Assembly (NCBI RefSeq): GCF_964275005.1
Contig: NC_092689.1
Coordinates: 10,863,879 to 10,927,878, forward strand
Direction of reading: 5' to 3'
Source: Diadema setosum
Lineage: Eukaryota > Echinodermata > Echinoidea > Diadematoida > Diadematidae
Length of the DNA stretch: 64,000 bases
Numbering within the stretch: the stretch's first letter is position 1; every line of letters starts with the position of its first letter. The position numbers and the translations under genes are program-made. Shown here one piece after another: positions 6,721-60,385 of this stretch. The notes beneath the pieces were generated by a model. The model had not been told where the DNA came from, made no database searches, and was given only the letters and a program-made list of their open reading frames with translations.

Positions 6721-9700
6721 TTAGAGGTACTGTCCTAGCCACCTGAAGCCCTCTCCGTAGCCTTGCTTCTTCAGGACACTGCACATGAAGAGTTCCAGGG
6801 GACGGCCTGGAAGCTCTCTCTGCGGAACCTTCCCCTAGGATGACAAGAACCATGACAATGTGGTAACTGGTATATACGTTCATACTGGTAAGTAAATCTC
6901 AAGTTAATGTTATTGATTTCAATATGTCCTTCTACTACTAAAGCAGTTATTTCTAAGGAAACCAAAGCCCAATGTGGATTGAGTAAAAGCAGCAGTATTA
7001 GTAGAACACATCAGTGAAAGTTTGAGGAAAACTGGACAATCGATTCAAAAGTTATAAAATTTTAACGTTTTGGTGCCATCATCACTGGATAAGGAGACTA
7101 CTACACTTTATGACATCACTGTTGACAACAATATAAAAAAAAAATATACAGAGAATTTCACAAAATTTAATTTATGAAAAGCACACATTCCAGTGAATTG
7201 TTACTACAAATGTTAAGGGTAATATTATTCCTCCAGCTTTCTGTGTGAGTCAAGTGCTCTCTCTTTATAGTAGAAGAGTGAAAAATTTGTTGAATTTCAT
7301 TTACATTTTCTTTATTCTGTTGTCCATACCGACATCATGAAGTGTAGTAGTTTCCTTATCCAGTGATGATGGCACAGTAACTTTAAAAATTCATAACTTT
7401 TAAATCAACTGTCCAAGTTTCCTCAAACTTCCGCTGATGCGTTCCACTAATATTGTTGCTTTCACTCAAACCAAATTTATATTTGGGTTTCCGTTTCCTC
7501 TTAAAGGTAGGAATACCTTTTACAGACCTCCCAAAATGCAGCAAAACATTAAATATGAACCTCAGGGGACTTGTTTAGGCCACTGCTGAGAAATTTGAAA
7601 GTCAACAGTTATCTACAATTTGAATAATGCACAAAACTCAACTACTCATTAGTTCTGTGTGTCAGCCACACTTAAGCCTTTTTGTTGCAGTCTTCTGTAT
7701 TTTTTTATCTATAAACACAAATCTAAAAGTTTAAGAGCTGATGTAATAACATATGGAGTGTGTGGCAAGAATGTATATAGAAATGTTTGTAAGTTTTGAT
7801 GAACTTTCTTCACAAAATATACATGATGGACACACATGCAGTGCATGGGTCTGCAAAGGTAGCCTAGTAATGTACTGGAATTTATGGTGAGCCCCGAAAA
7901 AAATTCAATTCAAAATCTAATGGTCAATAAAAATGTACTAAATGTTACCTTCCACTTTCAATACTTTATGGGAGTTTCTAAAATGATACTCTCTTCAACA
8001 TACCACTGTATTTATACAACTCTTCATTTAAGGCATGCAAATGGGATTCCCTACCTTTAAAACGCAATGAACTTCATAGATAGAAAACTTTTGAACATGA
8101 TGCCTATGACAACATAACATGACAAAGACTGGAAAAAAAAAAAGACAAGACCCCTGAACACTGCCAGTACTTATTATTATTATCTGGGAAAAGATAAATG
8201 CCAACATATTTTTTTTTCTTTGCTTGACTCTGATGAAAACAGGAAACAAAAGACTTATCCCTGACAAGGCTACTATCATTTGATGTAAAATTGTTCATCA
8301 CAATATGCAAAGGATATATTTGTCAAATCCATGGGGGCAAGTTTGTGGGCGAATGACTCAATTTTACCTTTCCAGTTGTCTGGCCAGTGAGACCCATCTG
8401 ATACCTTAGCTCCTCCTCACTAGCTGCTCCTGGTAAGTCAATCTTGTTTCCGAGCACCAGGATGGGGGCGTTGGCCACCATCTCGTCTGTCATTAAACTC
8501 TGCACACAACAGACAGACACGTTGGAAGCAAAGATCAGATGACGAAACACATGGGGCACAATGAATAATGGATAAATAAAGCACTATAATCATTGACCAA
8601 TTTTTCATCATCATCATCATCACCATCACCATCACAACACACACAGCAAACATCAAAAGTGCCTCCGGCAATGCTTTGTGGTAGTGGCATAAATACTGTA
8701 ATCATCATCGTCGTCGTCATCATCATCATCATCACACACTAAACATCAAAAGTGCCTCTGGCAATGCTTTGTGGTAGTGGCATAAATACTGTAACCTGGT
8801 TTGTCTGCAGAGAAATCAATAAGAAATCTGTAAAAATGCGTAACTTTTGAAACGATTGTCCTATTTTCATCAAACTTTTACCATGTGTTCCACTAATATT
8901 GCTGCATTTACTAAATGCACATGTATATTTGGGTTTCATTCTCCTCTGGAAGGATCACACACACTTACATCTAATTCTGTCTTTGCCTCTGCAAACCTCT
9001 CCCTCTCTGCAGCATCCACAAGGAACACGATGCCCTCCACAGCGGGCAGATACTTCTTCCACACCTTCCTGGCTTGTAAGTGACCACCAAGGTCAAAGGT
9101 TGTGAAGGTGACCCCATCAATCCTCAACTCTTCTGATGCTGTGAGTGGAACGTTAACATTGACAACATTGACATTAAATGTGTCAACATGTAATCATATC
9201 TGAAAGTATTCAAAGAATATAAAAATTGGAGTCCATACAAAAGATTCTGATTGGTTAAATGCTGCAAGGCAAATACATGTGATTTCAAAGCTGCATGGAT
9301 TTGATTGGACGTGTAAGATCAGGGCCCCATTTCATAAAAGATGTTAGGGTGGCAACTCTTGCTGGAATGGCAATTGTCATAGTAACGACAAGAATCCAGC
9401 TTCCTGATTGGCTGTTGCTATTGGAAGTTGCCATTCCAGCAAGAGTTGCCACCCTAACATCTTTTATGAAATGGGGCCAAGAACATTCAAACTTTTTTCA
9501 ACCTTCAAACATCAGACACAGCTCAACGGCGGACAGTTTCTAATCCGATCATCTCTACCGTGTTTACACATTCAAAGCAAAATTAAAGAATAGCGTGGAG
9601 GAGACAGATTATCTAAGGCAAAAAACATCATGTAGTTTCTTTCAAAGCCATTGAGAATGGGCACATTATTCGTGCTAAGTCAAGCTTCATCTCTTCAGGA

Positions 9701-11304: not shown

Positions 11305-11340
11305 CTTCTGTGAATATCTATTTACAGACCTCTGGAAATC
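11247..11340 (-). CDS. sar1: sar1 first coding exon with short 5' UTR part
   Basis: On the minus strand the sequence reads TTTTGCAG at 11348-11341, then 36 nt of leader, then ATG at 11304-11302, and ends in a GTAAGT donor at 11246-11241. The leader holds an in-frame TAA a few codons before the ATG, which fixes the start. The exon codes for the membrane-inserting helix (residues 1-19) and ends in phase 1. Confidence 0.9.
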
Positions 11341-12292: not shown

Positions 12293-12562
12293 TACTGTAA
12301 AAGTGGATATTTTCGCACGACCAATTAAATCTATTTGCGCTCCGCCAGGTATTACGAGTTTCATGTGGCCCAATTTTTTAATTCCACGGAATCAAGACAT
12401 CAACTACCATCTAGGTAGATCTAGGCCTAGGCCCTAGGCCCTACTGCTACTGGAACATCGTTCCATGTCAAGCAAAAATATTTGCATGCTTTTATTTTCG
12501 TGCTAGGCCTACTGCTAGTTTCTGGTTGCGCAAAATACAAAACACGCAAAAATTTGAACAGG
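12293..12562. mobile_element. MITE family A, inverted copy with internal insert
   Basis: Opens TACTGTAAAAGTGGATATTT and closes near 'gaacaggcag', with 'ctagtttctggttgcgcaaaa' matching the complement of the family's 'gcgcaaccagaaactag' core. A palindromic 'ctaggcctaggccctaggcc' stretch interrupts the middle. The full-length reference copy is at 41103-41315. Confidence 0.6.
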
Positions 12563-12620
12563 CAGTTCTTTTTTTTATCTAACTTTAATTTATCAGCACC
12601 CATACCGAAGTTTGACCGTG

Positions 12621-13062
12621 TAACGTCAATTACGGTATGGTCGCCACTTGTGTGTAATTCCTATGCACTTCCAGGTTGGCGAACTAATATTGGCACTGAA
12701 TTAGTTCGCCGCCCATAGCCTGCCACATATTTATTAGCGTGTGTGTTTATACACACACTTCAATGAAGGATGCATCGTCCGTCACCGCGTTTGAAAACCT
12801 CCCTTAGTCTGCCGCCTGAAATCCATTCTAAATCAAAAACATCTTCGCATTAAAAATGGTTTTATCACCTCTTACATATGGGAAAATATATTTTGATTAC
12901 AATTATTTGTGTATTTAGGGAGGAAAAAGGTGAATTACGAATGTATTTTGAGAGTGATGAAAAGCTGTCGCCCAAGCTGATCTCCGATCGCGGTGCGCAT
13001 TACATGCGATGTGAATGTCTGGCGACCTTACAGCAGTGGCGACCATACGGTAATTGACGTTA
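12621..13062. mobile_element. 442-bp inverted-repeat element
   Basis: TAACGTCAATTACGGTATGG at 12621 is mirrored by CCATACGGTAATTGACGTTA ending at 13062; the pairing extends to the inner 'tcgccact'/'agtggcga' (about 28 bp). No coding frame. Family not recognised. Confidence 0.65.
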
Positions 13063-13094
13063 GAAACCCCCGGGCCCTACAAAAGCGAAGTTTT

Positions 13095-13326
13095 GGCTAT
13101 CCTGGGTTTTAGGGGTCTAAATTATTTTGGGCTTCTAACTTCAGCACAGGCATAGATACGGACTATGGAAAGCCAAATAGGGTTAGGGCCAGGGTTAGGC
13201 CTTAGGGACTAAGTTAGTGTTAGTGTGAAACCATTTTGGCTTTCCATAGGCCTAGTCCATCATATCTATGCCTGTGCTGAAGTTAGAAGCCCAAAATAAT
13301 TTAGACCCCTAAAACCCAGGATAGCC
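13095..13326. mobile_element. foldback element with ~85-bp arms
   Basis: The left arm (13095-13177) 'ggctatcctgggttttaggg' to 'ctatggaaagccaaa' pairs with the right arm (13235-13326), which runs 'tttggctttccatag' to 'cctaaaacccaggatagcc'. The spacer is about 57 bp and GT/TTAGGG-like. Only a few mismatches or short gaps are seen. It begins 33 bp after the end of the 12621-13062 element. Confidence 0.85.
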
Positions 13327-13388
13327 GAAGTTTTTACATGGATGTAGCAGGTGGTCAAATTTTGGACGGCATTGGGTGGTTGTCTTAT

Positions 13389-13567
13389 CAGGGCTGCCAA
13401 CACTGGAAACTAGTTGAGAGTGAGACTTCCATAGGCCAATGCTATAATTTAGGAGTCAAAATGAGTGAGATCAATAGAAATGCATGCAAATGAAATAAAT
13501 TGTTAAGAGTGAGAAAGGACCAAAATGCGCGAGTCTCACGCTCAATGCGTGAGAGTTGGCAGCCCTG
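13389..13567. mobile_element. MITE with CAGGGCTGCCAAC ends
   Basis: CAGGGCTGCCAAC at 13389 and its complement GTTGGCAGCCCTG at 13555-13567 bound 179 bp. Inner bases 'gagagtgagac' and 'gtctcacgctc' also pair. The CAGGG termini are reminiscent of hAT-type MITEs, but no clear 8-bp target duplication is seen. Confidence 0.65.
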
Positions 13568-16100
13568 CATTATGATTATCATGATTATCATCATGATCAT
13601 GGGCAGCTTGCATTACTTAAATTTACATACATGGTCATAGCTCTACAAAATGGGCATGATGGGTAAACTTATCTAAATGCACATCCTAAAACAGGCCCAC
13701 AGAACCATGACTGACACTCCAGTCGAGACTGCTAACATTAAAATTAGTATGAACTAGTCTAGATCTATAGTGCTGGAGTGCTGCTGAGCTGTGCAAACTG
13801 TTTAATTTGACAAAACAAAATAATTTTACAGCCATTAAATTTACAGGAAAGGAAGTGATCACTACGCTATGGAAGTGCATTTCACGTTCATCACCCATCA
13901 TCAGATACGTAACACACGCGAGTTTCATATAACATGTTACTGTTAGAACACTTACATTTTTAGTACAAAACAGTTTGCATCAAGCACCATAATTATGCAT
14001 CACTGTCACCACTGGCACTGTACTGCACTGCGTGATAACAGAATGAGTGCAATGCCAATGAATGCGATCTCCGTCCAAATAACACGGAGCGAAAAAAAGA
14101 CCGGCGAACAAGAAATGAGGATCATGGCGTCTTAACCTCAAACACTATTTGCATTTTCTCCCTAAATATTAATCAGAAATTCCATTATAGATTACAGTAC
14201 ACGACTTACTATTTCACAAACCCAGTAATTACACAGTAATTACTTCGGTGGAGAATTTTGCGTCATTCATCCACAGGACACCGTCACGTTAGTCTACGTC
14301 TACGTACACAACTTGACAGGAACTAGCAATATGGATGCAGTTGATGGTGACGTCATCACCAGTCCGACGATTTATATTACAAGACATGTCATTGGACCAT
14401 TTTGCCCTTAGTTCCCTGTGGCAGACTACAAGTGAGGACGGTCGTCGTTCAAGTTATTTTGGTGTCGTAACTTTTTTCTTGAAGACGAGAAAGCAAAAAT
14501 TATACAAGCATACATTTTCAATAAATGTATGCATTACTCTAGTAAAAATCAAGCCAATTCGGCTTGATCAAGCCAATAAGACATGAGTAGTATAACACGT
14601 ATAGAGGAGAAGGGAGACTTACGCCTTATCCAATCAGTGTGCCTGATATTTGTCCAGTGCAGCCATTGGCACAAAGTTCATTCAACTGTGAGAAATGGCG
14701 CCGCACCTATGTTTTAGACGGTAGTCATTATGGCGTTGGTTAATGTATTGCGCAATTAACCAGAGCTGTCACAATCAGCGGAAAATAGTACACTATAACT
14801 GCACGTAAAAAGAGATCCCAGTGTTTGATACGATTTTAGCAAATTTCGACAAGAATCCTAAAGCCGTATCCGTCTGAAAATGACAGGAAAATCTTCTTAA
14901 TTCGTTTGTGCATATCAATTCGTCCATCCTTCTATATTAATAGGCGTTCCAATATATCAAGGTCAATGGCAAATTATTTGCTAGCATGAAAGAAGCTGCT
15001 GTTCAACTTTTCACATCGTTATATCACATATAGCAAGTTAAATAAACTCAATCATTTTGAGACACGTATATATATATATAGACATCACTCACGCTAAAGA
15101 TAATTAATATGATAACTGACCATGATTAAGAGCACTGGCAATGACGAAACGATAGAAATAACATGAAAATAATTTCGAGTAACCATTATCACTATCTAGA
15201 CTGGTTTATACCCAGTGGGAAGAGTGATCTTAAAGTTGATTGGAAAATACATTTTCTCTTAATTGTTCTTTTGATTTTAAATACTGACAACCAGCGCCAT
15301 AATTCAACCTCTAATCAAATTATTCTTCAGTGTTCAAGTTGACCCTTTAGGGTAAAATCAAAATTGTCAGAATTTTCATAAAGCTTTGGCATACACATTT
15401 AGAGTTACCATTATACCCTCGTCTTAACAAACAAGTACAACATAAACCAAACGCACTCGAAAAAAACCCCAAAAACCACTAAGCAGGATAATTCATAATG
15501 GAGTGATCGACCGAACTTTCTACATTGAACGTTTACTGAATACTTACCATCTCTATACTGCTTTCCTCTTACCCCCTTTCCCTGCAATAAATGTGCCTAA
15601 GAAATAGTAGACAAGGCATAACTCCTTTCACCCAAGAGAATCGATGAATATGCCTCGAAGTGTTTGTACGCATGCAATTAGAAGTTCTGTCTCCCCCACA
15701 CAAAAAACCAGGATAATTGATATGGATGACGTGGTTTTTAGCCTACGTGGGAAAAGTCTTTTCCGGGTTGCATAACTTTATTTTTATCCAAAAACAATCA
15801 AACAGACAGACACATGAAACCTTATGCACGCGCATCTGCACACGTTGTCAAAGACACGTAGATATCTATACACACATCATGTTGCACATTGCGCAACGAA
15901 GGATACAACGATCCTTGTTTCAATTCATCACAACATAGTAGCTGTTATACCTCTATACACTTTACCTCCCTCCTGTATAAGGGTTATTTAAGTTCGCATA
16001 ACCTTTTTTTTCTATTTTAGAGAATGCACTCTATAGACCTGGCGTTTGCTCTGTAAATTCAAGGAAGCATGCACGACGACTTTGCAAGTCTCCTTTACAC
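13568..16100. other. intergenic stretch, possible sar1 upstream exon region
   Basis: No coding frame with recognisable content. Minus-strand donor-like sites exist at 14623/14622 (GGC/GTAAGT, preceded by two CCAAT-type boxes), at 15549 (GATG/GTAAGT) and elsewhere; any could be the leader exon of sar1. A short palindrome 'tcaagccaattcggcttga' is at 14551-14569 and (TA)n at about 15069-15080. Confidence 0.3.
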
Positions 16101-16108
16101 ATAAAGGT

Positions 16109-16109
<1 letters not shown>

Positions 16110-16162
<53 letters not shown>

Positions 16163-16178
16163 ACACTCACACATACAC
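16110..16178 (+). repeat. (CA)n microsatellite
   Basis: About 48 bp of uninterrupted AC repeat, followed by interrupted ACAC/ACTC units. Confidence 0.95.
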
Positions 16179-16702
16179 AACGTGTCTTTTTGGTTTATTT
16201 CTGTTGGCATCATGCATATGAGATTTTTTAAAAATGCAACGAACTTGCATTCATTGCATTAAATTAGTATTTTGTTCTGTTGTGATAACCTATAATACGT
16301 GTAGTAACTTTTTGGGAGAGAGAGAGTTTTTCCTGAGGTTAAAAAGCATCTTAATCATTTGCATAAGAATCTATTTGCGACCAAGACTTTTCGGCGCAAA
16401 AGTTCATGATGGGAAACTTTACCTTACGAAATCCGACTTTCTCATAAACAAATCGCCGAGTTTGATTGTTCACTTTCAGATATCAAATTTTATCGAAATT
16501 ATAACCTTTTGTTCATTGATGATCTATAACTCCATTAAAGTCCACTAAAGCATGGCATTGGTGCATGTGGAATTTCATATAGGTGCAACTTCTTTTTTGT
16601 TTTCACAACTGATGTTTGTACGTGTGTATAATAATGCATTTGTATTAATGTGTAGGCATGTGCGCTCGTAACTTGTGTTTGTTTGTGCGTGTGTGTGTGT
16701 CA

Positions 16703-16824
16703 ACGGCGTAAATCCGTACTGAGGAGTGGGGGGGGGGGGATGGTCACCATCACCACGATTACAAGCCCATAACCGGACCGGCGCAGCCTTTGGGGGGGGG
16801 GGGGGGGGAGGGAAGCTTGGTGAA

Positions 16825-16855
<31 letters not shown>

Positions 16856-19134: not shown

Positions 19135-19136
19135 CA

Positions 19137-19137
19137 T

Positions 19138-19177
<40 letters not shown>

Positions 19178-19200
19178 TCTGTCTGTCTGTCTGTCTGTGT
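19137..19200 (+). repeat. (GT)n(CTGT)n microsatellite
   Basis: About 17 GT units followed by five TGTC-type units. Confidence 0.95.
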
Positions 19201-19712
19201 ATGTGTATACGCATGCGTATACAAGTGTTTATTGAATTGCTATGATGGCTGCATGCATGCAGTGTTATACTCGGTAGTTGACCATAAGGCAGCCTACAGC
19301 TGTATACACTTTTGCATAATGAACGTCTGTACGCGGCATGAACAGACATTATCTGTTATGGCATTTGAATGGCATTCATCGCGAATATATAGGTGTTGTA
19401 CACGAATAGGAAAAATAAGCTACTAGAGGCATAATATACTATAGTGTATGTACCCGGTATTGCTTTTGCACTGCATGGAAGTGGAAACGTACGTGGAATC
19501 GTCGTGTTGGCGAGTTGATTATTACTATGAAACAACTACATTTTACGGGTGATCACAACGCTCTTTCTCGTTAAATGTATTGGGGTTTCATTTTGTTATA
19601 TAAATTCTTCGACTTCATAATTTGTCATTCGTTACAGCTGAAAATTACCTATCTAGTAAGAACTTATTTTATAATAGCTTTTTATGGGAATCACTTTACG
19701 GGCTCCAAGCAA

Positions 19713-21119: not shown

Positions 21120-21217
21120 GCTACATGCTGATCAATGAACGGCGTTCCTCAAGTGTTACCGAGGTGTATGCTATAGAAATCACGTTGATCATGACTATCT
21201 GTTAAGTCGAAACTAAG
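21120..21217 (+). promoter_or_regulatory. candidate sec24 first-exon / promoter region
   Basis: A possible first-exon donor AAG/GTAAGA lies at 21217/21218. About 250 bp upstream (20950) is TTTCCGGTTG, an ETS-like element on the other strand, in a stretch slightly richer in CG than its surroundings and without repeats. No TATA box or initiator is convincing. Weak support. Confidence 0.18.
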
Positions 21218-42500: not shown

Positions 42501-45500
42501 GGGGGGGGGGGGGGGGAGGTAGGGGCAAGGGGAAGGGGTAGGGGACATACACTTCATGGTTGGGGCCACAAAACCTAGTTATGTATCTCTAAGATGCCAA
42601 ATGCTCAGGAGAGCGACGACTTGTTGTACCCTTTACCTTTTACTGGATAGAGGGGATGATTGATATTTGACAGTAGAAATTTTACGTAGGGGATTTCACC
42701 ATGTCTGGGGAAAGATGACATTGGAATGGGAGTTACCCCTTGTTTCATTTAAAGGTCCAGTTTACCTTTGGGAGCAGTGATTTCAAAAATGTTCAAGATA
42801 TCACATTTGATGCATATGTGTAGGTCTGTTGTACCACAAAACATCCTACCACATAAAATTTTTGCAATAAAGCCTAAAATATGAGGAGATATCAGCATTT
42901 TTCTCAATAAACCATAACTGTATACGGTTTAGTCTGAAAGCATTCTTATTATAACTATTGTTCACATTTTGTGTATTTAACAATACTTAACATCGATTAT
43001 ACGGATTCAAATTTTTACAGTGGTTGTTTCTATCCCTAACTCTCATTTTAGAACTATTTTAAAGCACTAATGTTGGGTTTTTGTTTCATCTGCAAATGGT
43101 AAATTATGCCTTTAAACAACTGTTCCAAATCTGGCAGGACACTCATATTTCCCGAGTGTCAGTCTCTCCTCATCTTACATGGCAAGATCGATATTTGTCA
43201 ACAAGAGTTTAGCTGCAAATTTGTTTGGGGAAATCTTGTAATTTTAGATTTTGTTATACTGTATTGAAAATGGAATGTGGAATAAACCTGAAGTGGAATT
43301 ACTTTAAAATTGATGGTTACATTGCATCAGTGTCATGTCGGAATCAGCTGACGAATCTATGCAAATTGCTCTTACATTGTACATTGCATATCTTTTGGTT
43401 TAATGAATTGCATATGTTCTGTCACTTCAAACCACTTGCTGATTTTGTTAGGTGCTTGTTGATATTAAGTTTGTAAATACATCTTTTACCTGTTTTGTCA
43501 CTCCTAAATACATATTATATTCTCTCTCTTCAGTGTATTTCGGTGCACCTTGAATGCCATCCCAGAATCTCAGTCACTGCTTCAGAAATCCAGACTTCCT
43601 TTCGGCCTCATCATTCACCCGTTCAGGGACCTCTCAGTAAGTGCAAACTCTCCATAGTGCAGTCTGATAACTGTGGCATGATACTGTTTATCATTTACTC
43701 GGGTTTTCAGATAATTTAGAATTAACTCTCACAACTATTTTTTTCATTAAGTATTTTGATCACCTATCAACTATCTTACAATTAGACTGAATAATTGAAC
43801 AGAATTAGAGTATTATTTGATGGTAAACTGCCCAAAAATCTATTGAGCATAGTGCCTCCTTCTCAAGCCAGTCGTGCCAGTTTGCAAGAAACGCATTTTA
43901 GGAAATCCCAGTCTTTTTCACGACTCTGTCGTTTAAGGACTCGGATGATATAAACAGAGTGAGACATACACTTTTATGTGCTTGAGGCACGCTTTGCTAG
44001 AATGGCATTACTAATGAAATGTTTGATAAAGCCCAGTTGTCACCATTAGTACATGTGAATCTTTTCCCACGCAGCACTTACCAGTAATCCAGTCCAGTGT
44101 GATAGTCCGTTGCAGATCTTGTCGCACCTACATCAACCCGTTTGTCGCCTTCATCGACAACCGGCGGTGGCGCTGCAATCTCTGCTTCAGGGTCAACGAC
44201 TGTGAGTAGACATCTCAATGTTCTTTTGCCCCAAGTGGGGGCTTCCAAGCAATTTTTTTTTTCTTCTGTTGACTGTACCTCTTCATGTGCAAAATCATGA
44301 ATTTAATAAAAAATTGCTCATATGTATCGAAATAGAGCAATGTTATAATTTCATGGCTAGCTTTGATACACTTGCGCTGTGTGGGTGAGGGGCAGAAAAA
44401 GGAAAATGTAAGCGTCCAGTCATACTGACCAATATTTTTGGGCTACACAAGAATAGGTATGGAGCTGCCAATTGATCTATCCATCTTCATTGACTCTTTT
44501 CCCAGGTTCATTTTTTTACCTGTTCAATTTATACAATATGTAGATGCCAGTTAATTCATAAAAAATCATTACACGTTATTGAAAGATACTGACACATAAT
44601 ACAGGAGTACTAGGTACACTATTTTAACCCATTAGGAAAGCCAAGCCTAACATGCTCATCTCATGAAGAAAGGATTAAAATGTTAGAAGACAGGCAAATG
44701 AGAGAGTACCATTTGACGTATTGATGCAGACTTTGCATACTAGGTTAATAAGTAGAGATGGATGATGGGAAAAAATTAATCCATTGTAACAAGAGGAAAC
44801 TTGTATGAAACTTTTGACACGACTTATACCCTGGCCCCATAGTTGTGAAAAAGTTAAATTTCCAAGCTTTTAGATTGGCTTGCATAAAGGGAGCTACCCT
44901 CCTTGAACCTTGAACAGGTGGATTTTCATTTAAGCTCCTTGGATTGATTCTTTTCTTTCTGGCAGTACCCGAAGAGTTCACCTTTGACCCTGTCACGAAG
45001 ACGTACGGAGAACCGCAGAGGAGGCCTGAAATCAAATCCTCAACAATAGAGTTCATCGCACCTTCAGAGTACATGGTGAGACTTTCATCTTCAGACTACA
45101 TATGTCCGCAAGCTTGTGGCCAATACCCTGAATGCAGCTACCTACCAAACAGAATGAAAGGAGATTTTTATTTGTCTGTGTTTGTTTTGCACAAGTTAGA
45201 GGAGAGATTTTATATTGTTTGTGTGTTTTTTTTTTCTTCAAATTGATGCACTGTCTGATTTGCTCTGGAGTTGCATCACTCCAGAATGATTTCTATTTTT
45301 TTCCAGCTGTTTTTGGTAGGAATCAATGTACGGGATGTATTTTTGTCCACTTTTTGCCCATCATAATGTTATCAGGGCTTCTAGTGGAGACAAGTGTAAC
45401 ACAATTGTGATTCTTTGCTTTAAGAACTGTATACAACACTACAAGTGTTGAAGTACAAGTATTATCTCGTCTGGCTAAAGGTCATGTTGATTGAAGTAGT

Positions 45501-48500
45501 ATTGTTTTGTTGTTTGTTTGTTTGTTTTTTTAATCAGTGTGGCTTTGAAATTCCAGTTCCTTGTTGCATTAAAATTGAGATCAAACATATGTCTCTGAAT
45601 ACTCAGTTGTGATCGGCTGATATGTGACTAAAGGTTGACTGCATTTTCTTATGCAACAGGGCCCAGAAGTCACAAATTTAAAATCACAACGAAAGATTTG
45701 ATGAAGAGGTGATCATCATGCAAATTTGAAATATCAGTGAATACGCTGCGTATAAATGGGAATATGTGCATTCTTGTTTTTCAGCTGCGGCCGCCCCAGC
45801 CAGCTGTCTATCTCTTCCTCCTGGATGTCTCCTTCAGCGCGGTGGAGTCCGGCTACCTGTCGGTCATCTGCCAGACGCTCCTAGAGTACATGGAGAAGAT
45901 GCCCGGCGATGCCCGCACCATGATCGGCTTTATCACGTTCGACAGCACGCTGCACTTCTACAGCCTGCCGGAGGGCGCCACCCGGCCGCAGATGATGGTC
46001 GTTTCGGATGTGGACGGTATGTTCCGCAGTTGGCGGCCTACTTATGCACGCACAGTGATCACTATGATTCTTCAAATTCATGAATTCTTGTGTGGAGTTG
46101 GGCTTATTGCAACTGATTGTCAAATTGCCCTTCATTGATGTAAACAAGCGCAGATTATCATGACTACTACTTCCAACACTGAATGATTAGTGTTTATTCA
46201 TGTCGATTAAGGGGAAGTTGTCAATCGGTTGCAACTATGAATTTTTCGTTTCATTGTTCAAAATCACTTAGAAGTATTCTAGCCATACTGTGCACACATT
46301 GAAATCTGTATGACATACAACTTCCTACTACTCTTTCATGTCTACTAATACATGATTACTTTGTCCATTTATTTATTTTTTTTTCATTTCTGTTCTTTTC
46401 ACATGTATGGAGCAAACAATAAATTACTTACAATGCTTTTAGGAATTTCAAGTGCATTGATCTTTTTGTGTTGAAGGATGATGGAGTGTTTAATTAATGT
46501 CCAATGTCATGACTAGGACCTCATGTTAGTGAGACAATAAAAGTTGTAAAGCCAGTGGTTTATTCCAAGGGAATGCATACTTACTAGTGGCAGGTAATTT
46601 GTGCATATTCACAGCTCCACAGCTTTATAAGATTTGAGTAGGTTGCCAGGAATCAGACCAAAGTTGGATTGTATTTGACATGCTTATGAGTGACAAGCTC
46701 AGTTTTATGATGACTATTGTTAGTCCATTACGATGAGTTTGATTCTCTGTTGTGTGTATTCTGCAGAATCAGAACAGAAACCCCCTTAGATTGTATGACA
46801 GATGGTAGCAAAATATTTTGATTCTTCTATGGTTTTTCTTTCTCAGATGTTTTCCTGCCTTGCCCGAGTGATCTCTTGGTCAATGTTCATGAATCAAAAG
46901 AGGTAAGTCAAGAAGTCTGTGCGTGCACCCATATTTGGATAAGGAAGGATTAATATACCTCCCATTGTATGCATATACATCTTTGTTTTGTTTTGTTTTT
47001 TTCAGTTTGAGAAAATACAATATAATATTTATGAAGATTGTATGTGCAAATTCTGCACCTAAAGAAATGTTTTTAAAAGGCAGCCATTTTCATCTTCTCT
47101 ATTTTGTATAATGTTGACTCCAACTCAGAAGTGAAACTGAGAACCACCAAGCCCAAACATTCCATTAAGAGAGAGAAAAAAGTCCTAGTGACATGCTTTA
47201 CTGATACAGTGTTTCTCTTGTGCGTTTTGAAGTGACATATGCATATGTATAAAGTGTAGAGAAGAGCTCACCAGGAGATTAAAAGAAAAATGAACAGTCT
47301 TTAATTAGGACATTTTTGAACTCATGGAGTCTCGGCTTTTTCACTTTTAGATATCTCAGAGACATAAATTCAAGCTTTCTTTCATTTTCTTTTTGTATGT
47401 TACATCCCTCTCCTACAGTTAATATGTGAGCTCCTCAATCAACTGCCGGCCATGTTTGTGGACAACAAGAATACGCAGACGGCACTGGGACCAGCCTTAC
47501 AAGCTGCTCTCAAACTCATGGTATGTCTTGTTTCCACTACCGTTTTTTTTTAAAAGTCATCACCTGTAGCTCTCGCTTTCATCACTAAAAGGAAAGAATG
47601 ACCAATTATGAATATAAATATCAAATTCAAAACTACAAATCAGCAGGGAAATAATAAGTTAACTTGATAGGACTGTACAGAGCTGAAGATAAAGCTGGAC
47701 TATTTCAAGTGTTATTCAATTTGCCATTTAATTGCCAATATTTGAAAGCTTGTCGAGATGTCAAGGTGCCTGTACTGTGACATCTTCACAGCATAACTGT
47801 GTCTTTGAATATGAGCAAGAAATTCAATGATCAAAAGTGACATGGTAAACAAGACTTTGCCTGCCAATGGTGATTGATGTTCAGGTTTGTCACATCAAGG
47901 CGCATTCTCTTCAGACTGAGCTTTGAGGTTCCCTAATGATTTAGCCGCATTTATTTATATATTCATTTTTTCTTTGGTTGGTTGCATTGATATGTGTTGG
48001 TGTGACCACTAAGGAAGCATTGAAAGCTTTTAAGCAAGCAACCACAAGACTGAGAGATTAAGGTCCCTTCAGAAGGGTTGGGCAGTGACAGTAAATTGTC
48101 TTGCCGTGGGGCATATATAACTGTCACAGCCAGTGCACTCCAACCAGGAAAATAGTGATTGATAGTCCATGGTCTTTTCCACTTAGCCACAACATCAGCT
48201 CCTCAGTTTGCACAAGTGTTGTAGTTGTTTCAGTCTCTTTCTCTTCTGACAGCCCTAGGGTGCGTTCAAGCACTCTAAAGCGAACCAAAGCATACTGTTC
48301 TGAACTGTGCCAGATTTGGAGCATTTGAGCGCTCTGTCGAGAAAGCTTTCATCATGAGTTATTTTTAGAGGAAGTATCATGCATTTTGTAGCAATGGGGT
48401 CATTCACCTGGTGTGCTTAAACTACTTACAGATATCCTAAACGAAGAGAATGAACTCTTTGCATTATGATGTATGTGCATGTTACGCGCATCCTTCACAT

Positions 48501-51500
48501 GCAAACTTTTGGTACACTTTTGGTACCCATTTTTAGCACATCGGGAAGTGGTACACTTTTGGCTTGATTCAGTTCGGTAAGGTACACTTCAGGAGTGTTT
48601 GAACGCTCCTCTGGTGTGGGTACGTAACGGTACAGTTTACGTTAGGAGAGCGCTCGAACGCACCTTTAGTCTCTTTCTCTCTCTTCTATTGTAAAATTGT
48701 TTCTTTTTCCAACAGAGTCCAACTGGAGGTCGAGTCACGATATTTCAGTGTACGTTACCCTCTGTTGGTGTGGGCGCCCTCAAGTCGCGAGAGGATCCCA
48801 ATCAAAGAGCCACAGCAAAGGTAGCTACAACTCTCTTGCCCATTTGTAGTTATTTCCAACTAATAACTGAGTCCTAAACATATGATTGTGTATAATTATT
48901 TAGGATGGAGAGGGGGCAATTGTGGTATCATTTATTTCTTCAAAGTATTATCCAATGCTTACATTTTACACTAGTTATTCATTGAACTTTCAGTATATTA
49001 TAAAGATGAATATATCTTCAGTTTTACAGTCTTTGTTTTGAAAAGGTTAAGTTATAATGTTATGTATTTTAGGGTTGTTAATCTGAGTGACATTACTTCA
49101 AAGCTGATGATCCTCAAAAGACTTTTTGTGCACTATGCCAGCTTTGACTTGTGGAATTTTAGTGAAATATCTGCGCAGAAGGACAGTCTATGTCTTGCAA
49201 ATTTTTTGTACATTGATAGACATGTGTGAGCTAAAAAATTGTAATGTTCTTATCTTTGATCGTGTTTGCTTGAATCCATCATCTTAGAGTGTGCCAAACC
49301 TTGGTCCCGCCACTGACTTCTACAAGAGAACGGCCCTGGAGTACTCTGGACACCAGGTGGCAGCAGACTTGTTTGTATTGGGCGCACAGTACATGGACAT
49401 TGCAACTCTTGGTATGTCTGTCACGAGTTTTAATGTTTTTGGTTTGCTTTTTTTTTTCACTCAGTGAGACATGACAATATTGCATCCTATTCCATGAAGT
49501 GATTACTGTATTGATGTCCTACTTTTTGCATACTTAAAAATTTCATGCTGAGCACCTCAGAAACATGTTTGTGAAAGTGATAGAATGGAAAGACATTTGT
49601 ATAGTACATAGATAAAAATTATGGAATGTAATTTAGTGCAAATAAAAGACAAATAAATAAGTGGCATACCATCTGTGTTGTTTGAAATAGAAGCAACAAG
49701 ATGAAATTATATGAATTCATTAATATTAACTGAATATTGTGGATGTGAAATGTCTCTTCTGAAGTTAATTTGCTGATGAGGTGGAAAGTGTGCAAATGGT
49801 TGTGACCAAAAGACTCTCTTCAAAAAAAAAAAAAAAAAGGAAAGAAAGAAAGAAATACTGTGTAGCATACAGAAGAGTTACAGCAGATAATGTTTGAGAC
49901 CCATTACAGAGCTATCCCATCATGAAGGCTTGTCATGTGTATGGTATTATTTAGTGTCACAAAAGTCTGAAAGAATTGACCTTTGCTTTTTCCTCAATTT
50001 CCACACGCAGCTGGCATAGCAAAGTTTTCTGGGGGCTGCCTGAACCACTACCCGGCGTTCCACACCGTGCAGAATCCAATGCAGGCGGAAAGACTCGAGT
50101 CTGACTTCAGGAGGTATCTGACGAGAAAGATCGGCTTCGAGGCAGTCATGAGGATACGATGCACAAAGGGTGAGACTCTTATCCTTGTTGTCCTTCTTTG
50201 AAACCTTTGCTTCAGCCTGAAAGCTGCTTAGTGGGAGAGGATGGAATTGGCCCATTAGTAAATATTGTGCTGCAATCTATCTCGAGGATAAATTTACCTA
50301 CAGTCGACACCGTGTTTCATGAACTCGAATATGCTGACATGAAGGGCAAACTTTTTTTGCACATGCTGTGTTCTGTGCCTGTAACATGAAAATAAGATAG
50401 GTTCCCCTAAAACAGATGCAATTCAAGGTGATGTAAAGTGTATACAATTCACTTTCATGCAAATTTGATCATTCTGCTGTCTTAAAAAGGACTGATTATA
50501 AAGTCCCTGTTCATATGATTCTCACAACATAACACCTGAAATATGGCAGTGAACATGAAAATGAAACCTTTGGAAAATAAAGGTCCTACATTGGTTCCAG
50601 TCAGTTGCTTTGGTAGTGATGTGGTTTATTGTTTGATGCAAAGCATTGAAATGTCAAATGAGTTTTGTTGAAGATGGGGGAATGAATACCACCTACAGCC
50701 ACAATCTATTGTAAATCAACAGTCAGATCAGCCGCGAATTGCGTAGTTCATATGAGCAATTTACTTATGCTTCTGACATTGCTCTGATACCAAATTTGAA
50801 ACCGTTGTTTTTGTTTCGCATCGTCTCTCTCCCCACTACCGTCCATCAGGGATGAGCATCCATGCGTTCCACGGAAACTTCTTTGTGCGGTCGACGGACC
50901 TGCTCTCCCTGCCGAACATCAACCCCGACGCTGGCTTTGCCATGCAGGTAGCCATAGAGGACAACCTCAACAGCTCCTCCATGGCTTGCTTCCAGGCAGC
51001 ACTACTCTACACAAGCAGCAAAGGTTGGTCATTCAGCCACTTCAGTTGACCAAGGATCTCTTGACCACTTGACCTGTTCCATTAAAGTGATACATCCATG
51101 CTGGGAAATTTTATGCATAGAGTGTATATCACAAATTGTTTATGTATGCACAGTGGATGATAGTCTGTTTAGTGAAAAGAAAATGTACCGTTTTTATCAG
51201 GATTAGTAATCAGGATACTGGGTACATATTGAAGCTGATCCATTTTTCATTCTTGGCCTTTCAGTTCAATTTGATTTTTTTTTTTAAAATCATACATAAA
51301 TTAACAGTGCATGTATATGAACAAAAATCTACATGATAAGTTCACGTTATAGTGATCACGAAAATGATCATAATTCCCGTGTGTGATATTGTTCCTTACA
51401 ATTCAAATGAGTTCTCTGTCATCATATGAAGAAACAAGTTTATCATTGGTGTTGTTAATTCATTCACATGTCAACGATCCATGCAGACCTTCAAGTCATG

Positions 51501-54500
51501 ATGCTTTGTGTAATGACCCAATTTAGTCAGTGGTTGGTGTCTGTTTAAATGTTTTCTGAGAGGTTTGACCGAGGTTCTGACACAATGGGAGAAAAGTGAC
51601 AATGATAGCCATAACAGTGAATATATCCATGACTTTATAAGCTTCAAGTCCCATCGTTGAAGTTTGTCAGTTCAAAGTGAATGTTTGTTTGTTGTTTTTC
51701 TGTCATTAGGTGAACGCCGGATCCGAGTTCACACCATGTGCCTGCCGGTGGCCAACCAGCTGACAGATGTCATTGTATCAGCAGATCCCCAGGCCATCAC
51801 AGGGCTTCTGTCTAGGATGGGTGGGTTATGTAACCTCACCTTTTTGTTGTGTGATGAATATGTTTACCCTTGTGTGGTATTGACCAATGATTGGCACATT
51901 TAATCACCATTTCTTGTTGATATGTGGTTCAACGCTGAGAATACCTCCTGAAAACAAATGACATATTATCTTGTTTTTCCTCAGGAAAACTTCCTTTTCC
52001 AGAATGAAATTACATCATGTTGACAATAGATTGTGCTCTAATCTTGTTGACTGTCATTTTTATGTTTTCATTTCAGCATTGAATCATAGAAAAAGCGGGT
52101 TTTCCACTTGTAATCGGAAACTCAGGGCATTTCAACAAAGTGAAGTACATTGTATTTGTGACGCCGTGAGTAGGAAACATGCAAGAGAGAGAGAGAAAAA
52201 AATGGACTATTCAGTAGTGGCATATTTTGCTCTAAATCTTCCCCTCCCTCCCAACCCCCATTTTAGCGGTGGACAAGTGCCAGACGTCCAATCTCGGGGA
52301 TGCCAGAGATGCCCTGGTCAACGTGTGCATTGACTCCCTGGCCGCCTACCGGACGACCCTCGCCAACTCCCACGCCATGGGCGCCCTCATGTGCCCGCCC
52401 AATCTCCGCCTCCTGCCGCTGTACACCCTGTCACTGCTGAAGAACGTGAGTAGAGACTTGTGACGTGCGGTGGGCTCGTCTGCACGATTCTGTTGCCACA
52501 AGAGCCAGAGCTGCCCAATTATCTCCCTGTTTATGCAGGAGGTTTATTGAAACACATGTAGCACAAAATGATCTCCCTGATTTCTCGTTAGAACCACGGA
52601 ATTTCAATGTCTTGAGTGCAAGCATCCCCTGGAATGCAAGTTTGTAGTATACAGAAGTGATTTAAACTTCTCCTCTCTTCTTCACTTTCTTCAGTTAAAG
52701 ATGATTCACAAGAGATTATTTGTCCATGTATGTAATTCAGCTGTGGTAGCAAGACAACACTGAGGTAGCAATAAATTACTTTTTTTTTCTGCCACTTGAT
52801 AGTTCAGGAAGACATTTTGATTACATGTCGCATGTTTGATCTGATTTTGCAGATGGCGTTCCGCCTCGGCACAAGCACCAAGCTGGACAGCCGTGTGTTC
52901 GCCATGGAAATGTTCAAGTGCATGCCCCTCCTTTACATCATGCTCCATGTGCATCCCGACCTCTACCCAGTGCACAACTTGAGCGATGAGGTAAGGCGCC
53001 CTCTTGGGATCCTCTGGAGCAGAGCTTCACGCGAATATTGCTGTTTGTCAAATGTCTAAATGAAAGTAAAGTGATCTCAGAGAATGTCATATGATTGTAG
53101 TGAAAGTGGAGTTTACATTTGTATATTTCTTGGGTAGTTCATTTTATAAAAAGTATGCCTGTCAGAGTAACTAGTTAAACATGTTACCCTCAACAGGAAA
53201 ACAAGTCAAATTAATTTCTTTCTTTTTTTTCACAAAAGGTATTTACACATTTTGAGACAGAATGACATTGATGTGAGTGTGTGAACTTCGTCTTAGTGAC
53301 ATTTTCTATCCATTATCTGTGCTCGAATTTCTGGCATAGTAAAGTGTCATTAAACTGGAATGGACTTTGCTTTTGTAAATGAAAAATGCAAATTATTAGT
53401 TTCTTTAGTCCATATCAGTGCAACTTTTGATTATTCACCAGCAGGGAAATATCCTTTATCAGGCTTGTGACTATTTGTGCATTCAAATCCCTTACTGTGT
53501 ATACAGTCATCATGTGAAAACTGTACCATGAGATAACAAGGCATTGCAGTGGTACAAATGAAAAACAAATCCTTGTTTCAATGTCATGCTGTGGTAATTT
53601 CAAAGCAAACATATATTGATATTTGTACTGAATTATCTGGAAACTTATCATAAAGTCTTTCTATTCAACCCTCTCCCTTGATTTAAAAAATATATATAGG
53701 GCGGTCTGCTGATCAATGATCAAGCCATACCCCAGCCGGGTCTTATCGGTCTGTCGTCTGAGTACCTCAGCAGGGACGGTGCATTCCTCATGGACTGCGG
53801 TGATGCCATGTACCTCTTTGTCGGTCAGACCATCTCGCCTGAATTCTGCCAGGACGTCTTGGATGTCCCAAACTTTGCAAGCATACCAGAAGGAATGGTG
53901 AGTTAGCTGTTATAAATTTCTTTTACAGGTCTATGTCTTTGATGCATGCAGATTAAAGTCACAAAGATTATGCAGATGAAGTCACCTCTAATTTTCATCT
54001 TACAGTCAGTCAATGTGTATACAGGATCATTTGTAATTTTTTTGTTTTTTTTGGTAAAGATAATATGCTCTGTGAAGAAAATGAGAAATGAATTGAACTA
54101 AATTGAACTGAAAGAGTCAACAACTGTGTCACATTAGTTGTGTGGTTTTCATATTTGTACTTTAAAGGCACTGGTTGACAGAAATTGGCAGTTTTCATTT
54201 GAAGATTAACCTTCCTTGATCTCAGACAAGATTTTGCTCATATTTCCTTTTCTGCTGTGATATGAATTAGTCATCGGAACCTGTAATTCTTCATTCTAGA
54301 TGGAGCTTCCAGAGCTGGATAACTCGACGTCGGATAGGATGAGGACCTTCATTAGCTGGCTTCTTGAGAAGAGGCCCTACCATGCACCTCTCCTGGTCAT
54401 TAGGTTAGTGGAGATGACAAGGGACTGTCAATTTGATTGTGGCAGTATTCACATTGTATACATGTATCACTTTAGCTTGACCATGCAGATAAGAGTGATG

Positions 54501-54957
54501 GATTTTTTTTTTTTTTTTTTTTTGAGTTGTGAGGACGATGGGTTCCCCTTTTTCAAAACTTTACAAGTTTTGTAATATTCTGTCCTCAACTTCAAAAGTA
54601 ATGGGGGGGGGGGAGTATAGGAATGGGCAGTCTCATGGTACACTGTGAAAAGAATATCCATATATAAATCTTCCACTGTGGTTCTGCACAATATTGATTC
54701 GGTAAATCATCATTGTGTTAGAAGTAGAGCGCCAATACACTCGTTAGATGAGAATGTCATTTTGATGCAGAAGCGATGCCAAAAGGTTACGCACAGAAAG
54801 TAAACGATGCTTGGCTGATTGTAGTATGCTTCACCCTTTCTTCAGGGACGACAGCAAGCAGCGCGGCCTGTTCCTGAGGAATCTCATCCAGGATCGCACA
54901 GAGGGCTCCATGTCATACTACGAGTTCATCCAGCATTTGCAGAAAGAGGTTAAGTAG
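24600..54957 (+). CDS. sec24: Sec24 (A/B class) COPII cargo adaptor, complete coding region
   Basis: 22 coding exons: 24610-25570, 28872-29042, 38148-38246, 39503-39811, 40576-40757, 42273-42433, 43534-43636, 44075-44201, 44966-45075, 45785-46016, 46847-46902, 47419-47520, 48716-48820, 49288-49411, 50011-50169, 50850-51023, 51710-51820, 52267-52445, 52853-52990, 53700-53897, 54300-54403, 54846-54957. They sum to 4017 nt, 1338 aa plus TAG, with every phase matching. Residues 1 to about 600 are Pro/Gly/Met-rich and disordered. The zinc finger has Cys675, 678, 696 and 699 (CRSC...CNLC). The trunk starts near [15 protein letters not shown] (about 743), followed by beta-barrel and helical parts and a gelsolin-like end (from about 1202). 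Segments such as [20 protein letters not shown] and [10 protein letters not shown] match vertebrate SEC24A/B, not C/D. The start is decided by an in-frame TAA at 24604-24606, six bases before the ATG. Sec24 pairs with Sec23, binds cargo export signals and is recruited by Sar1-GTP, the product of the divergent neighbour. Confidence 0.96.
24610..25570 (+). CDS. sec24: sec24 exon coding the disordered N-terminus
   Basis: A single 961-nt coding stretch (residues 1-320, ending in phase 1 at a TCAG/GTGAGT donor). The acceptor is TTTCAG at 24594-24599. The product is low-complexity: PGM/PGMQ repeats near residues 14-27, many PPP runs and Ser-rich stretches. Vertebrate Sec24A/B also carry a long unordered N-terminal arm of this kind that is poorly conserved between species. 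The strong Pro/Gly codon bias leaves a second frame open for 155 codons (24543-25010), which is probably a shadow; see the findings for a possible role as an upstream frame. Confidence 0.9.
25571..28871 (+). other. sec24 intron, no second gene seen
   Basis: A 3.3-kb intron with T and A homopolymers (about 26983-27008, 28025-28041) and a G run at about 26477. The 165-codon minus-strand frame at 26241-26738 has no recognisable domain and includes translated homopolymers, so I consider it chance. Confidence 0.6.
28872..29042 (+). CDS. sec24: sec24 N-terminal exon, phase-symmetric (57 codons)
   Basis: 171 nt between a CCCCACCAG acceptor and a TCAG/GTACAT donor, entering and leaving in phase 1. 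Reads as Pro/Ser-rich residues 321-377, including [20 protein letters not shown]. Its GC content is well above the surrounding intron. Because it is an exact multiple of three with equal phases it can be skipped without a frameshift. Similarity to known Sec24 is weak because this region is disordered in all members; inclusion rests on splice sites, open frame and composition. Confidence 0.72.
30362..30928. mobile_element. MITE family G with long inverted repeats, copy 2
   Basis: Starts TTAAAGGGAAGATAAACCC and ends GGGTTTACCTTCCCTTTAA. Arms extend over about 200 bp, including 'aatgtggattgagtgaaagc', 'aaaatcggacaatcgatgca' and 'ggatgaggagactactagag' with their complements on the right. About 567 bp, no coding. 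The TTAA edges could reflect a TTAA-type target. Confidence 0.88.
31081..31321. mobile_element. MITE-like element B
   Basis: Left 'tgtatatgccatatattt' and right (complement) 'gtatgcgccaaatgtttcat' form an imperfect inverted pair. The body has several 'ttcgcga' motifs in both orientations, in the style of family A. Single copy in this window. Confidence 0.5.
33545..33927. mobile_element. MITE family H, copy 1
   Basis: AAAGGGATGGTACAGTATTGG at the left is mirrored by the right-end complement AAGGGATCGTACAGTTTTGG. Body: 'gtttatttgatgaaaatcgg' pairs with 'ccaattttcatcaaataaac'. A 29-bp perfect palindrome sits at 33726-33754. A second copy at 39029-39419 shares most of its length. Internal to a sec24 intron. 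Confidence 0.85.
34111..34149 (+). repeat. (AAAT)n microsatellite
   Basis: About eight TAAA units with one interruption. Confidence 0.9.
36567..37053. mobile_element. non-autonomous DNA transposon E with subterminal repeats
   Basis: GGCTGCGTTTATCTAACTT at the left and AGTTTTAGATAAACGCAGCC at the right. Inside, 'tgcgtttatct' recurs (36663, 36865 and, as tgcatttatct, 36972), and 'aaacgcgttt'-type palindromic motifs occur many times in both orientations. About 487 bp, no coding. Repeated subterminal motifs are a usual transposase-binding layout. Confidence 0.8.
38148..38246 (+). CDS. sec24: sec24 N-terminal exon, phase-symmetric (33 codons)
   Basis: 99 nt after a TTCTTCTTCAG acceptor, ending at CAAG/GTAGAC, phase 1 on both sides. 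Codes residues 378-410, starting [20 protein letters not shown]. It sits at the end of a 9.1-kb intron, and a MITE copy begins only 34 bp after its donor. Frame and composition fit the flanking exons; like 28872-29042 it could be a cassette. Confidence 0.75.
38280..38476. mobile_element. MITE family A copy beside a sec24 donor
   Basis: TACTGTAAAAGTGAAAATTT to 'atccacatttacagta'. Shares 'caaccagaaattagc' and 'ttaccTGGCCGAGCGC' with other copies but has lost most CG dinucleotides to TG/CA, as expected from methylated-CpG decay. It starts 34 bp after the donor of exon 38148-38246. Confidence 0.75.
38621..38971. mobile_element. MITE family A copy split by a tRNA-derived insertion
   Basis: The left part reads 'gtggaaattttcattgtgtt', 'gaaaccagaagctagcgcga' and 'attctgcggaatta'. 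The right part resumes at 'gaattaaaaacatgtgaaat' and ends 'aaaatatccacttttacagt'. Both halves match the intact copy at 41103-41315 in order; the break is filled by 38762-38892. Confidence 0.8.
38762..38892 (+). mobile_element. tRNA-derived SINE-like insertion
   Basis: About 131 bp inserted in a MITE, flanked by GAATTAA on both sides (38755-38761 and 38893-38899), as in a target duplication. It holds a box A (AAGCTTAGTCGG, 11 of 12 consensus), an anticodon arm with loop CTAGCAA (AGC, Ala-type), and a T arm TCGGG-TTCGAAT-TCCGA with box B. The acceptor stem does not pair, so it is not a working tRNA gene. Confidence 0.65.
39029..39419. mobile_element. MITE family H, copy 2
   Basis: AAAGGGATGGTATAGTATTGG start, near-identical order of blocks to 33545-33927 ('ttggtggagatgagaattgg', 'aatgttagaaacctgaaatt', 'aggtctcaaccaaaact'). 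The central palindrome is decayed ('aaaaagtgggttccaccttt'). It ends 83 bp before the acceptor of exon 39503. Confidence 0.85.
39503..39811 (+). CDS. sec24: sec24 N-terminal exon with Gly-Pro-Pro-Met tandem repeat
   Basis: 309 nt after TTCTTCTTCAG, ending at ATGACAG/GTAGGT, phase 1 on both sides, residues 411-513. It begins [18 protein letters not shown] and then turns into a tandem run: four MGGPP units (466-485) followed by TGPP/MGPP units (to about 502). The 15-bp DNA units (about 39668-39779) are near copies, so length may vary between alleles. Confidence 0.82.
40576..40757 (+). CDS. sec24: sec24 exon, end of disordered arm
   Basis: 182 nt after TTTTTTCAG, ending GAGGCA/GTGAGT. It enters in phase 1 and leaves in phase 0, residues 514-574, with QQPG/PP/GMAQ-rich sequence and a charged end (PNDAIKKEA). 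This exon, unlike the three before it, cannot be skipped alone without breaking the frame. Confidence 0.85.
41103..41315. mobile_element. MITE family A, intact reference copy
   Basis: 213 bp. TACTGTAAAAGTGGAAATTT at the left, 'gaaaatatccacttttacagta' complement-like at the right, with a perfect 15-bp terminal inverted repeat and TA at both ends. The body is dense in 'cgcg' (about ten occurrences), unlike the AT-rich intron around it, so it has had little time to lose CpG. No coding. Confidence 0.88.
42273..45075 (+). CDS. sec24: sec24 exons for the linker and zinc-finger domain
   Basis: Exons 42273-42433, 43534-43636, 44075-44201 and 44966-45075 (residues 575-741). The first holds the motif [12 protein letters not shown], comparable to the NLLQ-type linker of Sec24A/B. 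The next reads [19 protein letters not shown], like the vertebrate CFRCTLTNIP segment. The third carries the zinc ligands C675, C678, C696 and C699; the fourth reads [20 protein letters not shown], a Sec24 hallmark. The zinc finger contributes to the Sec23 interface. Splice phases are 0/2, 2/0, 0/1 and 1/0. Confidence 0.93.
42482..42545 (+). repeat. G-rich tract in a sec24 intron
   Basis: Purine tract with a G run of about 14 and several GGGG/GGGA groups, beginning about 50 bp after the donor at 42434. Could fold into G-quadruplexes in the pre-mRNA. Confidence 0.7.
42749..43115. mobile_element. MITE-like element with TTTAAAGG ends
   Basis: Left TTTAAAGGTCCAGTTTACC and right GGTAAATTATGCCTTTAA form an imperfect inverted pair around 367 bp without coding. 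The TTTAA edges recall family G. Single copy here. Confidence 0.45.
45785..54957 (+). CDS. sec24: sec24 exons for trunk, beta-barrel, helical and gelsolin domains
   Basis: Thirteen exons (residues 742-1338). Trunk: [16 protein letters not shown] to about [12 protein letters not shown] (45785-48820). The following exons read [17 protein letters not shown] and [19 protein letters not shown] (50011-51023), [15 protein letters not shown] (51710-51820), [11 protein letters not shown] (52267-52445) and [17 protein letters not shown] (52853-52990). The gelsolin-like end has [17 protein letters not shown] (53700-53897), and the protein ends [15 protein letters not shown]. All match vertebrate SEC24A/B in order. 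Several donors are weaker than consensus (GTTGGT at 51024, GTTAGT at 54404) but the protein match leaves little doubt. Confidence 0.95.
48257..48665. mobile_element. non-autonomous DNA transposon F
   Basis: AGGGTGCGTTCAAGCACTCT at the left and AGAGCGCTCGAACGCACCT at the right; about 409 bp. Inner 'ggtacacttttgg' and 'gtttgaacgctcct' motifs repeat. The style (gcgtt, direct and inverted subterminal motifs) resembles element E. Its right end lies 50 bp before the sec24 exon at 48716. Confidence 0.75.

Positions 54958-60345: not shown

Positions 60346-60347
<2 letters not shown>

Positions 60348-60385
<38 letters not shown>

Follow-up and report, generated by a model that had tools for sequence, protein, structure and literature searches.

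In the echinoderm genome analysed here, sar1 and a sec24 gene of the A/B class are adjacent and divergently oriented, as their orthologs are in human and mouse. The Ambulacraria-chordate split separates these lineages, and the arrangement, with identical orientation on either side of it, very probably descends from an ancestral pair, as judged from the two lineages compared. This suggests that the pairing is older than 500 million years. The initial annotation had suggested that the pair may be ancient, and the agreement among echinoderm, human and mouse supports this. Shared regulation or a regulatory block, its second suggestion, is no more than a possibility here, and the CpG pattern of the locus argues against a shared core promoter.

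Structure of the pair

The window, i.e. the whole 64-kb stretch that was analysed (C5:10,863,879-10,927,878), contains no N. It belongs to a 46.3-Mb contig, C5, of a genome of 912.7 Mb in 102 contigs. Exon-by-exon rebuilding gave two intact genes on opposite strands, sar1 (-) and sec24 (+), neither with an internal break and with no domain-bearing gene between them (Table 1). The outer limits proposed earlier, 6721 and 54957, proved exact, being the sar1 and sec24 stops, respectively, and the gap of 13.3 kb between coding starts measures 13,305 bp from ATG to ATG. It is exceedingly improbable that a misassembly joined two loci here: the window is gapless within a long contig, its CpG zones (see below) shift near gene ends and not at a single break, and the arrangement agrees with that of human and mouse.

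The echinoderm origin of the genome can be read from its mitochondrial contig (C102). Genes follow the order 16S-cox1-trnR-nad4L-cox2-trnK(CTT), nad4L and cox2 having been assigned by eye. COX1 contains nine in-frame TGA codons, and genetic code 9 restores Asn at a conserved position where codes 5 and 24 give Lys. Judged from the sequence, the code (AAA = Asn), trnK(CTT) and gene order are those of echinoderms, with a layout as in sea urchins or sea cucumbers.

The coding exons of sar1 join into a 197-aa reading with no internal stop. In a phmmer search against PDB, its residues 1-197 aligned with residues 1-197 of SAR1/SAR1B (E 1e-92), followed by SAR1a (about 3e-89) and the more distant yeast Sar1 (about 2e-66). 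The product is a full-length Sar1 GTPase, nearer to Sar1 than to Arf. When the genome was searched with the Sar1 protein, 15 matches were obtained. Five are the sar1 coding exons (78-95%) and the other ten are Arf-family sequences that match part of the protein at 32-53%, the best-scoring one at 38%. One Sar1 gene was thus found in the genome, the one in the pair.

The sec24 gene was assembled from the 22 exons found, and its long introns may hold further small ones. All introns run GT..AG with consistent phase. The predicted protein has a Pro-rich N-terminus (exons 1-5) and zinc finger, trunk, helical and gelsolin-like regions; apart from the trunk, where the Sec23_trunk Pfam domain matches with E 2.2e-26, these region names follow the general layout of the Sec24 family. 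The 764-aa core scores 1069 bits with Sec24B and 1042-1045 with Sec24A, far above the 384-390 bits with Sec24C and D, and we therefore class the gene as Sec24A/B: it possesses the trunk and is closer to A/B than to C/D. Both gene identities given in the initial annotation are thereby upheld. A Sec24 exon compared with the viral contigs had no match there.

Exons 2 to 5 were linked through splice sites, phase and Pro-rich composition, without strong similarity. Exons 2-4 are of phase 1 at both ends, have lengths that are multiples of three and encode Pro-rich sequence; they are likely skippable cassettes for alternative splicing of the N-terminus.

A tRNA-like Rfam match (38793-38860, 40.6 bits), for which ARAGORN makes no call, lies in a CpG-rich patch of a sec24 intron. 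Copies of a short repeat that lies near 38651-38695 are also present at 21885-21930, at 41133-41178 and left of the window. Match and repeat are possibly a tRNA-derived SINE.

Table 1. Coordinates of the sar1-sec24 locus (positions in the window) and of human 5q31 gene families (contig and Mb)
Feature	Position	Strand	Remarks
sar1 coding span	6721..11304	-	5 coding exons, 197 aa, consensus splice sites
sar1 coding exons	11304-11247, 10399-10280, 9138-8969, 8499-8368, 6834-6721	-	from exon assembly
Untranslated start of sar1 ATG exon	11305..11340	-	opens at splice acceptor TTCATTTTGCAG
CpG-rich spacer between transcription units	12300..23200	.	best two-break segmentation of 6-30 kb
Untranslated start of sec24 ATG exon	24600..24609	+	opens at splice acceptor TTTTGCTTTCAG
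sec24 (A/B class)	24600..54957	+	22 exons found, ATG 24610, stop ends 54957, 1318 aa
sec24 exons 2-4	28872-29042, 38148-38246, 39503-39811	+	lengths 171, 99, 309
Tcf/Lef	C5 5.15 Mb		best-scoring match
DDX46	C5 28.33 Mb		best-scoring match
Pitx	C5 29.2-33.8 Mb		best-scoring match
PP2A-C	C5 42.75 Mb		best-scoring match
Smad1/5	C11 27.09 Mb		best-scoring match
Jade	C11 29.53 Mb		JADE2-like exons; not the top-scoring match
UBE2B	C11 31.03 Mb		best-scoring match

Comparison with mammals and with other gene pairs

The initial annotation had stated that human SAR1B and SEC24A are adjacent and divergent at 5q31.1. PMC5658338 confirms the arrangement: on chromosome 5 the two genes are about 15 kb apart and oppositely oriented. 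According to the same paper, SOX6 overexpression in K562 cells raises both SAR1B and SEC24A mRNAs, and a conserved double site between the two genes, adjacent to a GATA1 site, is bound by SOX6. The mouse Sec24a-Sar1b pair is likewise divergent, with start sites less than 10 kb apart (sections of PMC3575404). There it is the only interacting pair among duplicate-free neighbours scoring above 0.2, with a score of 0.58, the G-NEST score being the product of expression correlation and synteny over 11 mammals. The G-NEST authors describe the mouse genes as 'likely sharing a promoter region'. They find that most interacting neighbours in mammals are tandem duplicates and conclude that protein interaction is unlikely to drive neighbourhood formation, although it may aid maintenance.

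The echinoderm pair thus resembles the mammalian one in its orthologous genes, their adjacency, their divergent orientation and a spacing of the order of 10-15 kb. It differs in copy number, since human has extra copies, SAR1A at 10q22.1 (PMC3029219, in part) and four SEC24 paralogues in all (PMC5658338, in part), whereas the search of the present genome yielded a single Sar1 and a single Sec24A/B. It also differs in its surroundings: the tested human flanking genes had no match within 100 kb.

Deep adjacency of two non-homologous genes is shared with the ancient metazoan microsyntenic pairs, which are kept by cis-regulatory constraint according to Irimia et al. 2012, as quoted in part of PMC13317027. 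The pairs named in that part are developmental (Pax1/9, Foxa, Tbx2/3, Egr), whereas sar1-sec24 includes no developmental regulator.

Among the matches listed by our literature searches, which left most subscription journals outside, no report of the sar1-sec24 pair in invertebrates was found. The mammalian pair and the idea of its co-regulation are already published; as far as these limited searches show, the echinoderm pair is new.

The spacer and the probable transcription starts

In each gene the ATG exon begins at a splice acceptor, 36 nt before the ATG in sar1 and 10 nt before it in sec24, where an in-frame TAA directly precedes the ATG. YAG-ended AGs at least as pyrimidine-rich as the sar1 acceptor account for 155 of 7218 AG dinucleotides on both strands. 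Because the ATG exons begin in this way, each gene should have a noncoding exon further upstream, and the noncoding first exons of both genes probably lie inside the 13.3-kb gap. That gap had been described as the distance between first coding exons; the distance is right, but these exons are probably not the first ones of their genes.

No Pfam domain was detected in any of the six frames of 11,400-24,600 at E up to 0.01, while the same method recovers the sar1 exons. Nor does the spacer contain an Rfam family at gathering score, the only match in the whole window being the tRNA-like one in the sec24 intron. As far as such searches can tell, there is no gene between sar1 and sec24; a domain-less gene or a long noncoding RNA is possible. 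The spacer also includes a tandem array (17437-18328) of 5.3 copies of a 165-bp unit with 83% matches and a 203-aa open frame.

CpG is depleted in the coding spans of sar1 (o/e 0.40) and sec24 (0.44) but not in the spacer core, 14,000-22,000 (0.85); the stretch 12,401-13,999 is intermediate (0.67). TpG+CpA behaves in the opposite way, with 1.35-1.36 in the coding spans versus 1.19 in the spacer core. The two breaks of the best segmentation (Table 1) have 3-lnL intervals of 12,200-12,600 and 23,100-23,300, and the chance that G follows C is 0.165 between them and 0.063 outside. Elsewhere, CpG o/e is 0.39 in the Sec24C/D span, 0.25 in the Sec23 span and 1.01-1.14 in the right flank (L020-L028). 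Depletion continues past both stops, at 0.40 in 1-6,720 and 0.51 in 54,958-64,000, and on to about 72 kb. It is therefore not specific to the two coding spans, and its extension beyond the stops calls for long 3' ends or for genes that escaped recognition. Within sec24 there are short CpG-rich patches, which may represent young repeats.

In a sea star, 91% of methylated sites are in gene bodies and promoters are about 5% methylated, with a sharp rise of methylation just past the start site (PMC12550476, in the sections cited). Because methylated CpG decays, CpG depletion should mark transcribed DNA, and the CpG-rich spacer is probably unmethylated. The breaks, taken as a proxy for start sites, are about 10.9 kb apart. 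Since methylation may set in a little way into a gene, the start sites should be at most this far apart.

It is against this pattern that a single bidirectional core promoter, from which long noncoding first introns would run both ways, has to be judged. Such a promoter would place the true starts within the 13.3 kb, as the splice acceptors at the ATG exons suggest, and would suit the G-NEST authors' wording for mouse (PMC3575404, in part). Head-to-head pairs with bidirectional promoters are also similar in divergent orientation and related function. By the usual definition, however, their start sites lie within 1 kb, compared with up to about 10.9 kb suggested for this locus and about 15 kb between the human genes (PMC5658338, in part). 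With depletion ending near 12.4 and 23.2 kb, and with methylation climbing right after the start site as in the sea star (PMC12550476, in part), a common promoter would imply first introns that are free of methylation for about 5 kb on each side. The spacing of the breaks argues against it, and we consider it improbable.

Flanking sequences and chromosomal context

Pfam scans of 1-6,720 and 55,000-64,000 gave no match. Eight human 5q31 proteins were searched by tblastn over the window plus 100 kb on each side, and none matched at E 0.01, while a Sar1 control in the same search did. As judged from these comparisons, the pair alone is conserved locally, with no wider block around it.

The surroundings show several features of their own. 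The CpG-depleted stretch on the right extends for some 17 kb, from 54958 to about 72 kb; it has no Pfam domain up to 64 kb and may contain a long 3' end or a gene that escaped recognition. From about 72 to 164 kb (L019-L028, more than 90 kb), CpG o/e is mostly near 1.1 with dips to 0.74, an abrupt shift from the CpG-depleted left side, and open frames of 120 aa recur there in several copies. To the left of the window, at a distance of 25.5 to 17.8 kb (L016-L017), three strongly CpG-depleted open frames of 727, 1013 and 410 aa lie on the minus strand; the parts scanned gave no Pfam match and the 727-aa frame no PDB match. They are probably one large, unassigned gene. An open frame with F-box and leucine-rich repeats, which we take to resemble FBXL15, is found 55 kb left of the window (L013:4744-5421, +).

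Eight human genes other than the pair itself were sought genome-wide. Within 1 Mb of a 5q31.1 marker, PMC5085221 (in part) lists SAR1B, SEC24A, TCF7, PPP2CA and DDX46 together with PITX1, UBE2B, PHF15, SMAD5 and CAMLG. Seven of the eight were located (Table 1), orthology being judged by matches to fragments of human proteins and not by trees. PHF15 is a synonym of JADE2. The eighth, CAMLG, had no PF14963 match in the genome, and its control search was also without match. Four of the seven families are on C5, for which the probability of at least four, by length share, is about 2e-4; the other three are on C11 within 4 Mb of one another. Human 5q31 as one single chromosome here is consequently ruled out by Smad1/5, Jade and UBE2B.

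For Jade, a higher-scoring single long exon on C2 was rejected, as it is 93% identical to BRPF1 and 49% to JADE2, whereas the C11 exons match JADE2 at 48-78% and BRPF1 more weakly; Pfam could not separate the two. The C2 gene (C2:40787058) is BRPF1-like in its own right: EPL1 and the two PHD-type domains share a reading frame that seems to be one exon, and the identity to human BRPF1 extends over 177 residues. Pitx-type homeobox matches occur at C5:29225285, 33686411 and 33833693 (86-90%, 47-50 residues each), which suggests more than one pitx gene.

From these placements, C5 and C11 each look like an ancestral linkage group, and human 5q31 like a mixture of both. JADE2 adjoins SAR1B in human and yet falls into the C11 group; the pair would thus have stayed whole while its neighbourhood was replaced. 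The lack of tested human flanking genes near the pair could also be expected had sar1 and sec24 become neighbours separately in echinoderms and vertebrates. Yet it is the same pair, in the same orientation, with the same Sec24 class and on the probable ancestral chromosome, and we estimate, for an assumed gene number, the chance of this named pair meeting within C5 at about 1 in 1000. Independent arrival is thus very improbable.

Other Sec23/Sec24 loci

Three Sec23/Sec24 trunk loci were found in the genome. The single Sec24A/B is the sec24 of the pair; tblastn with human query proteins assigned the others to a Sec24C/D-like gene at C5:39.57 Mb (48-79%) and to Sec23 at C1:9.45 Mb (59-92%). Sec24C/D therefore shares C5 with the pair, 28.6 Mb away. 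In human, the paralogous regions 4q25, 5q35 and 10q22 each hold a Sec24-family gene (PMC4678570, in part), and the word SAR1 is absent from the main text of that paper. Sec24A/B and Sec24C/D on one chromosome, although 28.6 Mb apart, are what one would expect of the chromosome from which this paralogon arose by the vertebrate genome duplications. Together with SAR1A at 10q22.1, the data would fit a single chromosome that held sar1, sec24A/B and sec24C/D before these duplications.

Discussion

Why have sar1 and sec24 stayed together? We think it slightly more probable than an even chance that an ancestral neighbourhood plus shared spacer elements form the whole explanation. The two genes would have stood head-to-head on one chromosome of the echinoderm-chordate common ancestor, and the pair would have survived while its surroundings were reshuffled. 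Each gene would have its own promoter, at about 12-14 kb and 22-23 kb in the window, and regulatory elements of the spacer would act on both. The GTPase that initiates COPII and the coat subunit that binds cargo might thus be made together, and breakage of the pair would deprive one gene of its elements. We prefer shared spacer elements because of the mammalian data and the survival of the pair through reshuffling, although for shared regulation as the reason of this persistence we would put the chances at even. Several points speak against the explanation. The comparison covers two lineages, 11 kb is a long spacer if co-regulation is to be tight, and three of the 5q31 families are on C11, with no 5q31 match within 100 kb of the pair. 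Moreover, the G-NEST authors doubt that protein interaction drives the formation of neighbourhoods (PMC3575404, in part).

The serious rival is neutral survival. The pair would be ancient with nothing holding it, as some of thousands of ancestral neighbours survive by luck. We take sar1 and sec24 to be general housekeeping genes, and their apparently separate promoters, like the absence of the tested human neighbours within 100 kb, fit such a leftover well. So do the mammalian data, in which interacting neighbours are mostly tandem duplicates and interaction is judged an unlikely driver of neighbourhood formation (PMC3575404). The pair has nevertheless outlived shuffling within its chromosome and, in human, mixing with genes of a second ancestral chromosome. 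Such survival is not the rule: even between two hemichordates, no microsynteny is apparent according to PMC11175523. Furthermore, both products work in one coat and are co-expressed in mammals (PMC3575404 and PMC5658338, both in part). On balance, we doubt that luck is the answer, although the case for it has considerable weight.

A more far-reaching form of the explanation by shared spacer elements is that elements acting on two separate promoters have held the pair adjacent for more than 500 million years, even while two ancestral chromosomes mixed around it in the human lineage, so that COPII dosage would be under shared long-range control across deuterostomes, a situation rare among non-homologous interacting pairs. 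We put this forward tentatively and regard it as rather unlikely in this full extent.

The echinoderm pair turns what was a mammalian curiosity into a probable case of deuterostome age. It offers a concrete site at which control of coat stoichiometry by a shared regulatory block could be tested. Chylomicron retention disease is the disease of SAR1B. The pair may bear on this disease and on SEC24A as well, as both genes could be under the influence of distal spacer elements.
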